The position numbers and the translations under genes were made by a program. DNA of 64,000 nucleotides from Ignavibacteriota bacterium (GTDB lineage: Bacteria > Bacteroidota > Ignavibacteria > UBA10030 > SZUA-254): NCBI GenBank assembly GCA_016212665.1, contig JACREZ010000028.1, forward strand, positions 1 through 64,000, in the 5' to 3' direction. Below are positions 207-35,014 of the stretch, piece after piece; position 1 is the first letter of the stretch; each line of letters opens with the position of its first letter. A model generated the notes under the pieces. It saw only the letters and a list, made by a program, of their open reading frames with translations. It did no database searches and was not told the DNA's origin.

Positions 207-1190
207 TCACTTTAACCAACCATTTTTCCTATACCATTCGACTGTTCCTCGAATTCCTTCTTCCAAATTGATAGTTTCACGGTAACCAAGTTCTTTTTTC
301 GCTTTCGTCACATCGCACGTCCACGCATCCTGAATAATGTCTTTTACTTTTTCAAGATTGAGCAGTGCCGGTTTCGAACTAAACTTGGAAAAGATTTCGG
401 CAAAGAAGCCGATGACGTAAACTCCTGCTTCGGGAATTTTCAGCCGGAGAACTTTTTTCTGCATGATGCTTGCCGTCAATTCTCCGATTTCCTTCCAATG
501 ATAGAAGCGTTCGCTGGAGATAAAATATATCTGCCCGACTCCGTTCGGATGTTCGCCGGCGAGAATAATTCCATCAACCAAACTTTTTACATGAACCAAA
601 CTGACATATTTTTTCCCGAAGCCAATCATCGGTTGTAAGCCCTTGTTCATCGTGTTGAAAAATTCAAACACGTCTTTGTCGCGGGGACCATAGACTGCCG
701 GAGGACGAGTTATCGTGATAGGAAGTTTATCGAGCAACCGTAAACATTCCTTCTCTGCTTCCATCTTACTGATGCCGTATGTCGTGATTGGATGAAACAG
801 TGTTTGTTCGTCAACTGCTTTATCACCCAAACTCGGTCCGACTGCCGCCTGACTGCTGACGTGAACAAATCGCTTCAACTCAGGATTTGTTTTCAACACG
901 ACGTGAAGGAGATTCTTTGTTGCAAGATGATTGCCGCGAAAATATTCTTCCTTTGTTTTCGCCTTCGTGACTCCGGCGAAATGATAAACATAATCAACAT
1001 CGGCGACTGCTGATTGCAATGCCTTGTCATCGAATAAATCTCCATACACGTATTCGATGGGAAGATGCTTAATGTATTCAAGCGACGATGTTTTCCGAAT
1101 CAGGCAACGTAACTGGTAACCCTTTGCGTGAAGCGATTCTGCGAGGTGACTGCCGATAAACCCGGTGGCTCCGGTGATGAAAACTTTCAT
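207..1190 (-). CDS. NAD-dependent epimerase/dehydratase (extended SDR), candidate ceramide reductase CerR
   Basis: This 327-residue extended short-chain dehydrogenase has the Rossmann motif GATGFIG (G7, G10, G13) and the catalytic pair Y138/K142 in YGISK. It has no membrane segment near the N-terminus and its length is normal for the family. It is divergent from a serine palmitoyltransferase gene, which is followed by a GNAT-like gene. The same three protein types make ceramide in Caulobacter, where the SDR (CerR) reduces the 3-keto group of oxidised ceramide. I infer that role from context; a nucleotide-sugar epimerase or another SDR activity cannot be excluded by sequence alone. Confidence 0.8.
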   Translation of the reverse strand: MKVFITGATGFIGSHLAESLHAKGYQLRCLIRKTSSLEYIKHLPIEYVYGDLFDDKALQSAVADVDYVYHFAGVTKAKTKEEYFRGNHLATKNLLHVVLKTNPELKRFVHVSSQAAVGPSLGDKAVDEQTLFHPITTYGISKMEAEKECLRLLDKLPITITRPPAVYGPRDKDVFEFFNTMNKGLQPMIGFGKKYVSLVHVKSLVDGIILAGEHPNGVGQIYFISSERFYHWKEIGELTASIMQKKVLRLKIPEAGVYVIGFFAEIFSKFSSKPALLNLEKVKDIIQDAWTCDVTKAKKELGYRETINLEEGIRGTVEWYRKNGWLK

Positions 1191-33403: not shown

Positions 33404-33490
33404 TTGTGGAGCTGAAGGTCAACGACTCGTAGAGGATTCGAACCCTCGACCTTTCGGCCTACGGCTCGTAGAGATGCGAACCGAACGCTC
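33404..33490 (-). pseudogene. Broken tRNA-Ala fragment interrupted by two 16-bp insertions
   Basis: Three blocks (33404-33418, 33435-33457 and 33474-33490) are identical to 33792-33846 of the intact tRNA-Ala locus, 55 bp in all. They cover the 3' flank, T-arm, variable region and anticodon arm. The blocks are separated by 16-bp insertions at 33419-33434 and 33458-33473 that resemble each other at 13 of 16 positions. The 5' part of the tRNA (acceptor strand and D-arm) is missing, so this copy cannot be functional. Confidence 0.88.
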
Positions 33491-33493
33491 CAT

Positions 33494-33775
33494 TTAGACT
33501 TCGGAATATTGTATAATCTTTGATTTATCAAACTTCATTATGAGTTCTTTTTTCTGTTCAGTGCTAAAGTTTTTTTTAAGATCCCATTCACGCCACATAG
33601 CTTCTGAACGAGTTAAGTAAGTCTCAAAGTAACCGAGTCTAAAAGGAGCCTTTGCTTTTGTTGATTTTCCATATCCTTTATTATGTCTTTCTAATCTTTT
33701 TTGAAGATTACTAGTTTGACCAGTATATAAGGAACCATCTACAAGACTTACGAGAATGTAAACAAAGAAGGACAT
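33494..33775 (-). CDS. Small GIY-YIG nuclease-domain protein
   Basis: The 93-residue protein is a stand-alone GIY-YIG domain: FVYILVSLVDGSLYTGQT supplies the two signature segments, followed by the helix LQKRLERHNKG with its conserved arginine. PFRLGYFETYLTRSEAMWRE then carries the metal-site glutamate region, and WDLKKNFSTEQKKELI closes it. It resembles the YhbQ/URI-type family, whose cellular role is unsettled. The gene lies in the same direction as tRNA-Ala and exactly between the intact tRNA and a 55-bp repeat of the tRNA's 3' portion, as an inserted element would. Confidence 0.88.
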   Translation of the reverse strand: MSFFVYILVSLVDGSLYTGQTSNLQKRLERHNKGYGKSTKAKAPFRLGYFETYLTRSEAMWREWDLKKNFSTEQKKELIMKFDKSKIIQYSEV

Positions 33776-33794
33776 TCAAAATTAGAAAAATTTG

Positions 33795-33867
33795 TGGAGC
33801 TGAAGGGATTCGAACCCTCGACCTTTCGGATGCGAACCGAACGCTCTCCCAGCTGAGCTACAGCCCC
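33795..33867 (-). tRNA. tRNA-Ala (anticodon CGC)
   Basis: The minus strand gives a full cloverleaf with acceptor GGGGCTG/CAGCTCC, including the G3-U70 wobble pair that identifies alanine tRNAs. The anticodon loop TTCGCAT has anticodon CGC, and the T-loop is TTCGAAT. The discriminator is A. CCA is not encoded. Confidence 0.94.
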
Positions 33868-33970: not shown

Positions 33971-35014
33971 TCAATGGTTTTGAATTCTCCATTTGATAAA
34001 AAAACGATTCATAGGGCTTCTTCGTGCTATTGATTGCATAGAATCATAAGGTGCGCTAAAGAGAAGTGAATCCGGAACTGTTACAGAAGGGTTTTTCTGC
34101 TTAAAGTATTTTTTGATTCCTTTATCAAACGGACGAAGTGTTGGAAAAATAATTTCCGCATACTTTTTATCAATAGTAAACATGGGAAGGAAATCAAATG
34201 TATTATCCGGTATGTAACCTGCGGTATCTGAATGATAATCAAAACCGATGATGCGAAGTAAATGTTCTCCCAAAAACAATGTATCTTTGATTCGGTTTTG
34301 AGTTCTAAACATTATCTCCAAATCAAAATCTTTTGCTTGTAAAGTAGAAAAAGAAGAATCGAGTTTGTAAATGTTTTTTAACATTAAATCAAAAGCGGGT
34401 TTGAGGCTTGAATTGAGATACTTGGGTTTGATGAGTTTTAAGGTATATGAAGGATGTGGTGCTGTATCGATTCCAGCAAATTCACCAAAATACTTTTTGT
34501 CATTCGTACTGTATGCCACAGCAATTGCTTGGTCATCATTCACTTTTGTTCTCAAAGAAATATATCCCTCCATATCATGAATTATAAAATCTTGGTTTAA
34601 GACCAGTTTTCTGAAAAATCCCACTTCTGATTTGCCTTGTGTTGGATTTATAAGGGTATCGTATGTAGTATCATACAAAGAGGATGGGCTATCCTTTGAT
34701 GGAAGGTTAATGTATGCTGTTGCATAGATTAAACTTAGTTCGACCATATTTGTTGTACTAATCCAAACGTCAATTTCATTTATTGAATTAGCCATCATTT
34801 CAGAAGTTATATTTGGTGGATATGTCTGATGATAATCTTCAAAAATATGTCTGTATATAGTATCAAGGAAAAAATGTGAATCAGAGTAGTCCGCCGCGGA
34901 AATTTCAAACGGAAATTCCTGCTCGACTGGAATTGACTGAATAATTTCTTCTTCACAACTGAACGTTATGAAGAGAAGCAAAATTGAAATGCCGATTTTC
35001 CCAAAGAGTTTCAT
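33971..35014 (-). CDS. Hypothetical lipoprotein
   Basis: The 347-residue protein has a lipoprotein signal (MKLFGKIGISILLLFITFSC, cysteine at 20). The mature part is acidic and soluble, with no domain I recognise. The C-terminal segment with RRSPMNRFFIKW recalls surface lipoproteins of Chlorobi/Ignavibacteria genomes, but that is only an impression. It is transcribed divergently from hrcA, separated by 127 bp, with no partner gene on its own strand. It is probably anchored in the outer membrane. Confidence 0.7.
   Translation of the reverse strand: MKLFGKIGISILLLFITFSCEEEIIQSIPVEQEFPFEISAADYSDSHFFLDTIYRHIFEDYHQTYPPNITSEMMANSINEIDVWISTTNMVELSLIYATAYINLPSKDSPSSLYDTTYDTLINPTQGKSEVGFFRKLVLNQDFIIHDMEGYISLRTKVNDDQAIAVAYSTNDKKYFGEFAGIDTAPHPSYTLKLIKPKYLNSSLKPAFDLMLKNIYKLDSSFSTLQAKDFDLEIMFRTQNRIKDTLFLGEHLLRIIGFDYHSDTAGYIPDNTFDFLPMFTIDKKYAEIIFPTLRPFDKGIKKYFKQKNPSVTVPDSLLFSAPYDSMQSIARRSPMNRFFIKWRIQNH

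Follow-up and report, generated by a model that had tools for sequence, protein, structure and literature searches.

SegB, a free-standing GIY-YIG homing endonuclease of the T-even phages (T4/T6), adjoins tRNA genes and cuts tRNA-containing DNA, spreads by break repair and drives segmental amplification between short repeats (PMC2988022; PMC13096335). Its site is a tRNA intergenic region within a phage tRNA cluster (PMC2988022). In the fungal mitochondrial mobile ORFs (Allomyces atp6; Glomus atp6, atp9, cox2 and nad3), an endonuclease ORF lies at the end of a gene; the gene end is duplicated, the gene stays whole and the dead native end is left beyond the ORF, while the restored end is foreign, with 64-81% identity to the gene end of a close relative (PMC3630166). 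REP and REPIN sequences are short palindromes dispersed over the genome, frequently in pairs and in part nested in other repeats (PMC3116915). Here, we analyze a locus that brings together a small GIY-YIG gene, an intact tRNA gene, a partial copy of that tRNA and palindromic inserts, in a 64,000-nucleotide stretch of DNA from an Ignavibacteriota bacterium that is referred to as the window.

The tRNA-Ala locus

Read on the minus strand, the locus consists of tRNA-Ala(CGC), a 93-aa GIY-YIG ORF in the same direction and a 3' piece of the tRNA. The intact tRNA-Ala gene, with anticodon CGC and a length of 74 nt (33794-33867, minus strand, ARAGORN), is followed by an 18-bp spacer from the tRNA 3' end to the ATG (33776-33793, minus strand) and by the stand-alone, UPF0213-like nuclease ORF (33494-33775, minus strand; ORF call, Pfam PF01541, E 3.4e-16). 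The fragment starts 3 nt past the ORF stop codon and spans 33406-33490 on the same strand, i.e., 85 bp holding 53 tRNA nucleotides, which lie in three parts with tRNA positions 22-38 (33474-33490), 39-61 (33435-33457) and 62-74, the 3' end (33406-33418). The parts retain every tRNA base and are held apart on the minus strand by two palindromic inserts of 16 bp: CTCTACGAGCCGTAGG separates tRNA positions 38 and 39 on the 3' side of the anticodon loop (33458-33473), and CTCTACGAGTCGTTGA separates positions 61 and 62 on the 3' side of the T-loop (33419-33434). The tRNA letters of the fragment are identical to those of the intact gene (53/53, tRNA positions 22-74), and the similarity ends 2 nt beyond the tRNA end. 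The geometry of the initial annotation, an intact tRNA-Ala, a GIY-YIG ORF in the same direction and a 3' tRNA repeat, was thus confirmed by ARAGORN, the ORF call, PF01541 and the repeat itself; the size of 55 bp given there for the repeat was incorrect, and both palindromic inserts had been overlooked. Its remark on a single small nuclease gene without an integrase also holds, as the 93-aa ORF is the only one between tRNA and fragment and neither an integrase nor island genes were found near the locus, which is flanked by ordinary genes about 0.1 to 0.4 kb away.

Both inserts are members of a dispersed repeat with 30 exact pattern matches to TCTACGAGYCGTWGDC in the 3.9-Mb genome. Several of these 16-bp palindromes are nested within other palindromes of the genome, and the repeat is often located in the loop of the outer one, e.g., CCCGC/TCTACGAGCCGTAGGC/TAAAGCGGG.

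Across the whole small domain, the sequence of the window ORF resembles UPF0213-like stand-alone GIY-YIG proteins, the nearest solved chains being UPF0213 1zg2 (E 4.5e-10, residues 1-79) and 1ywl (E 1.4e-6). The catalytic residues are retained among 94 relatives (Y17 in 94/94, R27 in a fraction of 0.99, H31 in 94/94 and E63 in 0.98), and diverged nuclease pairs have dN of 0.16-0.27 at dS of about 2 or saturated, with dN/dS far below 1. No match for the nuclease was found in PHROGs and PADLOC; viral contigs yielded one weak nuclease match and phages 19 records, all below 60% identity, and the surroundings of the Rhizobium phage gene include no annotated tRNA. The position of the ORF just downstream of the tRNA and in its direction suggests that the two are probably co-transcribed.

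The tRNA-Ala(CGC) of the window is 100% identical to that of G001 and to that of G015 and G025 from another family, whereas it is only 84-88% identical to those of other members of its own family, the differences being in the anticodon arm; the anticodon-arm segment may possibly have been replaced. The adjacent 347-aa gene (33971-35014, minus strand) matches part of proteins of about 2,350 aa in all family members, with one such match elsewhere in its own genome, and we take it to be possibly a partial SprA-like paralogue. It was dropped as a synteny anchor, since its relatives are the proteins of about 2,350 aa located elsewhere and mark no orthologous site, and the neighbor with a thioredoxin domain was used as the anchor instead.

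Recurrence beside tRNA genes

In a survey of 60 genomes of the same order, with one genome per species and the window protein as seed, nuclease relatives were present in 49. Adjacency was counted for the 90 ORFs with at least 250 bp of flank on both sides; 68 of them have a tRNA gene within 250 bp, against one tRNA per 96 kb at control loci. The nearest tRNA is on the strand of the ORF at all 68 loci, the ORF reading in the tRNA direction, and at 61 of the 68 a fragment of the same tRNA lies beyond the ORF, compared with 1 of 204 decoys (tRNAs of other isotypes in the same search), which served as the control for the ad hoc chaining score behind the fragment calls. The targets include Ala, Arg, Asp, Cys, Gln, Leu, Met, Pro, Ser and Val tRNAs, and tandem units occur among the nuclease loci. 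Elsewhere in the phylum, beyond this order, a tRNA adjoins 15 of 25 ORFs; all 15 are co-directional and 13 have a fragment, and the same succession of tRNA, ORF and fragment was seen in a WOR-3 MAG and a Melioribacter MAG. The survey of small GIY-YIG genes for tRNA fragments proposed in the initial annotation therefore clearly speaks against a general lack of tRNA association among the homologues.

The genome of the window itself contains six ORFs of this nuclease family. The three most similar ones all abut tRNAs: besides the window locus, a tRNA-Pro(GGG) locus has a 3' fragment split by two 22-bp twin hairpins, and a tRNA-Cys(GCA) locus has a 5' fragment on the other side of the ORF. As two more nuclease genes of the same genome abut tRNAs with fragments, and as the relatives are far above the decoys, the geometry of the window locus is not due to chance.

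Loci without a tRNA gene were screened with Rfam and ARAGORN, which detected only a TPP riboswitch and one interrupted tRNA, and no tmRNA or other RNA target. At locus L160, a full-length tRNA-Met-like sequence (244-346, minus strand) with a T-loop hairpin of about 30 nt directly precedes the GIY-YIG gene, and a 5' tRNA fragment is found further upstream, with the contig end close by. The remaining three ORFs in the genome of the window (L004, L005 and L006, at C38:90-323, C9:35558-35779 and C44:64064-64309) are without a tRNA and amid dispersed palindromes; they are part of another tRNA-free clade, and their flanking palindromic repeats are GTCATGCCGAAC..., TCATTCTGAGGAATCC... and ATTGCGAATCCCG.

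Isotype specificity of the nuclease lineages

The tRNA-bound rows of a 94-nuclease tree require 17 changes of tRNA isotype, compared with a mean of 50.4 and a minimum of 45 after shuffling, and 38 changes of host family, compared with a shuffled mean of 46.2; with one row per locus, there are 16 isotype and 37 host-family changes. The window ORF belongs to a clade with 100% support together with nucleases at tRNA-Ala in three other families. The nuclease lineages thus follow the tRNA isotype more than the host family, and target specificity travels with the lineage. The isotype clustering is firm, while the exact branching is not, because the alignment has only 90 columns and many forks are weak. 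The side of the fragment (35 downstream and 27 upstream) shows 19 changes against 20.2 after shuffling. The fragment side, 5' upstream or 3' downstream, therefore showed no sign of being inherited along with the nuclease clade, which indicates an element without a fixed tRNA part.

A sister clade with 100% support (L080, L089, L091, L138 and L162) consists of elements of about 290-370 bp with inverted-repeat ends, TTCACCCCGTGAGATA...TATCTCACGGGGTGAA. Three of its members, L080, L089 and L138, interrupt protein genes, of which two are integrase-like and one DUF1016-like as judged by eye, and one long reading frame results when the flanks are joined. This is independent support for mobility of the nuclease family, and the sister clade could possibly be a one-gene GIY-YIG transposon.

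A proposed one-gene element aimed at a tRNA isotype

We hypothesize, with a probability of roughly 0.62 and on the basis of sequence comparison, that the window locus belongs to a family of homing-type mobile elements with a single gene, each of them directed at one tRNA isotype. The nuclease would be transcribed together with the tRNA and would cut or nick an unoccupied gene of its own tRNA in the anticodon-arm region. Repair would then install the ORF beside the tRNA and duplicate one tRNA half on either side, leaving a whole tRNA to one side of the ORF and, to the other, a dead half in which palindromic hairpins in the loops probably block recutting or keep the half from being mistaken for a tRNA. 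As in a free-standing homing endonuclease gene, a homing-nuclease domain with intact catalytic residues occurs together with empty alleles and lineage-borne specificity. The initial annotation had proposed a minimal nuclease element directed at tRNA genes that leaves the tRNA whole, and this receives strong support from adjacency, orientation, fragments, isotype clades and empty sites. Against the homing interpretation stand the fragment side, which does not follow the nuclease clade, and a duplicated half that does not look foreign; in addition, the presumed target is still present in the intact tRNA next to the ORF, which leaves self-protection unexplained.

More tentatively, the one-gene elements could be a phylum-wide class, in which an isotype-dedicated GIY-YIG nuclease invades a tRNA gene and copies half of it locally, hairpins mark or block the leftover at the cleavage positions, and sister lineages with palindromic ends enter protein genes. 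The process would be guided by structure, with the GIY-YIG nuclease as the only enzyme.

Source of the duplicated half and insertion with local duplication

In 59 fragments, 2527 of 2601 tRNA letters (97.2%) match the local intact tRNA, as compared with a mean of 83.9% for those tRNAs of other genomes that share the anticodon. For 44 fragments the local tRNA was strictly the best match, for 15 it was tied, and it was never worse. A foreign origin of the restored half was considered and not seen, as the fragment was in no case closer to the tRNA of another genome. An element with this geometry need not bring in a foreign tRNA half, since fragment and intact half match each other and not a foreign donor. 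With no foreign half seen, homing within the species, local duplication at the time of insertion or later gene conversion must be assumed. The distance between the repeat end and the mature tRNA end is at most 3 nt in 22 of 35 downstream (3') and 16 of 24 upstream (5') cases, and the remaining repeats include flank or terminator or are part of tandem units. The local identity and the repeats ending at the mature tRNA end therefore indicate that the duplicated half is local or from the same species and is trimmed to what restores a tRNA.

The 67 tRNA-fragment pairs contain 66 clean inserts of at least 10 nt, of which 56 fold much better than shuffled sequences and 46 are located in or next to the D-, anticodon or T-loop. 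Many fragments carry such hairpins, and the intact tRNA beside the ORF keeps its full sequence. The hairpins may be marks of nuclease cut sites, a protection of the dead half or separate small mobile repeats tolerated only there.

The local identity of fragment and intact half would also fit insertion with local duplication, which we regard as distinctly less probable than homing. Here, the nuclease would nick or strand-transfer on hairpin-forming DNA, i.e., tRNA arms and palindromes, and would insert there its own gene and, in trans, the small hairpins; the half-tRNA would be a long target-site duplication and not a by-product of homing. Consistent with this are the location of the hairpins mainly in tRNA loops, the presence of the 16-bp hairpin within other palindromes as well, the relatives in the same genome that lie amid dispersed palindromes, the interruption of genes by a sister clade with terminal inverted repeats, and a fragment side that is random relative to the nuclease clade. 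However, a plain target-site duplication is disfavored by the repeats that stop at the tRNA end, as such a duplication has no reason to end there and restoration of the tRNA has one. Moreover, we know of no GIY-YIG enzyme that acts as the transposase of such an element.

Empty sites and arrays without a nuclease

The homing interpretation implies unoccupied alleles, and these were found. The Gly-Cys-Leu-Val tRNA cluster, compared in 30 genomes, has the ORF precisely between the Gly and Cys tRNA genes in 3 and lacks it in 27. At an occupied tRNA-Cys locus (L202), a second unit keeps only the two ends of the ORF and is thus an ORF-deleted relic. The search for tRNA-Ala(CGC) loci without the insert, suggested in the initial annotation, was successful in that the syntenic gene of G001, G003, G005 and G006 has the ORF in none of them; in G001 and G006, fragments are present without the nuclease. 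In G005, the tRNA is clean on the 3' side and the contig ends inside the tRNA; in G006, there is one 3' fragment of tRNA-Ala type with a T-loop hairpin and no ORF. In G001, which belongs to the same genus as the window genome, the syntenic tRNA-Ala(CGC) is accompanied by three tandem 86-bp units of tRNA positions 42-74 without a nuclease, each with a twin hairpin in the T-loop; only four copies of this hairpin were found in G001, all in tRNA-Ala-like 3' fragments. An empty-site relative with the fragment and without the nuclease had been named at the outset as an argument against the element, and with its three fragment copies G001 is literally such a relative. G036 has three 82-bp repeats of a T-loop-interrupted half-tRNA beside an intact tRNA and again no nuclease. 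The loci at which half-tRNA units interrupted in the T-loop lie by intact tRNAs and without a nuclease, the repeats of G001 and G036 included, are L169 (1244-1520), L192 (1582-1821) and L207 (1322-1407).

The tandem arrays without any ORF in G001 and G036 count against the homing interpretation. They could suggest that the hairpin-bearing half-copies are small repeats in their own right, arising by tandem slippage or as miniature elements, and that the nuclease merely settled in a neutral, transcribed spot. A stricter BLAST count, in which 9 of 118 tRNAs lacking a nuclease ORF had a fragment nearby on the same strand, points in the same direction. We nevertheless consider this improbable, because nuclease lineages that are isotype-specific across families are not expected of a passenger, and fragments are far more common beside the ORF (61/68) than at other tRNAs, with the reservation that the two counts used different search settings. 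As an ORF-deleted unit is directly visible at the tRNA-Cys locus L202, the fragments without a nuclease may be derivatives that lost the ORF or never had it.

Recurrent hairpin positions and the remaining alternatives

The insert positions recur by isotype, at 22/23 of tRNA-Arg in five genera, 23/24 of tRNA-Leu in four, 35/36 of tRNA-Ser in four and 31/32 or 32/33 of tRNA-Pro at five loci, as well as in the T-loop 18 nt from the 3' end. Shared positions within an isotype amount to 65 coincidences, compared with 18.8 expected and a maximum of 34 in 1000 randomizations. The insert sequences differ between genomes, with some families shared, and CTACGA palindromes accompany Ala-clade elements in several families.

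Positions that are common within an isotype across genera while the sequences differ, together with the complete co-directionality, would be compatible with a host role of the nuclease in tRNA biology, such as the cutting of tRNA or tRNA-like RNA, with the interrupted half-tRNA as a decoy, guide or autoregulatory leader RNA. This is very unlikely, as a patchy distribution with tandem copies and relic units, and with loci of close relatives that are empty, is unlike a housekeeping function, and some of the fragments are short and uninterrupted. Finally, the possibility that the locus is what remains of a conventional integrase-type island inserted at the tRNA 3' end, for which an intact tRNA with a 3' fragment would be the classical geometry, can be practically dismissed, given the lack of integrase or island genes near the locus with its close ordinary neighbors, the same single gene recurring throughout, and fragments that are 5' nearly as often as 3' (27 versus 40 across the 67 pairs), unlike those of tyrosine-recombinase islands at tRNA 3' ends.

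Comparison with known systems

tRNA genes are landing sites for large islands; in the family described here, a gene of less than 300 bp appears to exploit chromosomal tRNA genes alone, repeatedly and in an isotype-specific way. A search of open-licence papers on GIY-YIG and tRNA genes yielded no account of such bacterial elements, which is weak evidence of novelty; the family looks like a very small, apparently undescribed type of mobile DNA that settles at essential RNA genes and leaves them intact. If this is true, part of a very common but uncharacterized group of small GIY-YIG proteins would gain a function, the recurring tRNA half-copies and hairpin repeats by tRNA genes would be explained, and tiny nucleases with a conserved RNA gene as their natural target would become available, each isotype clade predicting a specific cut.

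The nearest solved sequences are those of the UPF0213/YhbQ-YazA group, which are of the same size as the window ORF and for which we know of no function; the linkage to tRNA genes shown here refers to the relatives of the window ORF and not to UPF0213 at large. In contrast to tyrosine-integrase tRNA islands, there is neither an integrase nor cargo between the repeats. The inserts are like REP/REPIN sequences and the small dispersed repeats (SDR) reportedly described in cyanobacteria by Elhai et al. in 2008 in being short, often paired and scattered palindromes, some of them nested. They differ from REP/REPIN in that they occupy loops of the tRNA fragments, at positions that depend on the isotype, and are linked to a GIY-YIG nuclease, unlike the Y1 (HUH) transposase of REP/RAYT.

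SegB, as a stand-alone GIY-YIG gene beside tRNA genes, is the nearest precedent in action. Unlike SegB, the window family is chromosomal, encodes proteins of 80-100 aa, has one nuclease clade per isotype and a presumed cleavage activity; moreover, each gene is accompanied by a duplicated half-tRNA, and this dead half contains hairpins. In anatomy, the fungal mitochondrial mobile ORFs come closest as a precedent; their combination of a duplicated end and a whole gene is also found at 61 of the 68 loci here. Those ORFs are associated with protein genes, whereas a tRNA gene is the target here, the duplicated half may be the 5' or the 3' one, and the halves are locally 97% identical.
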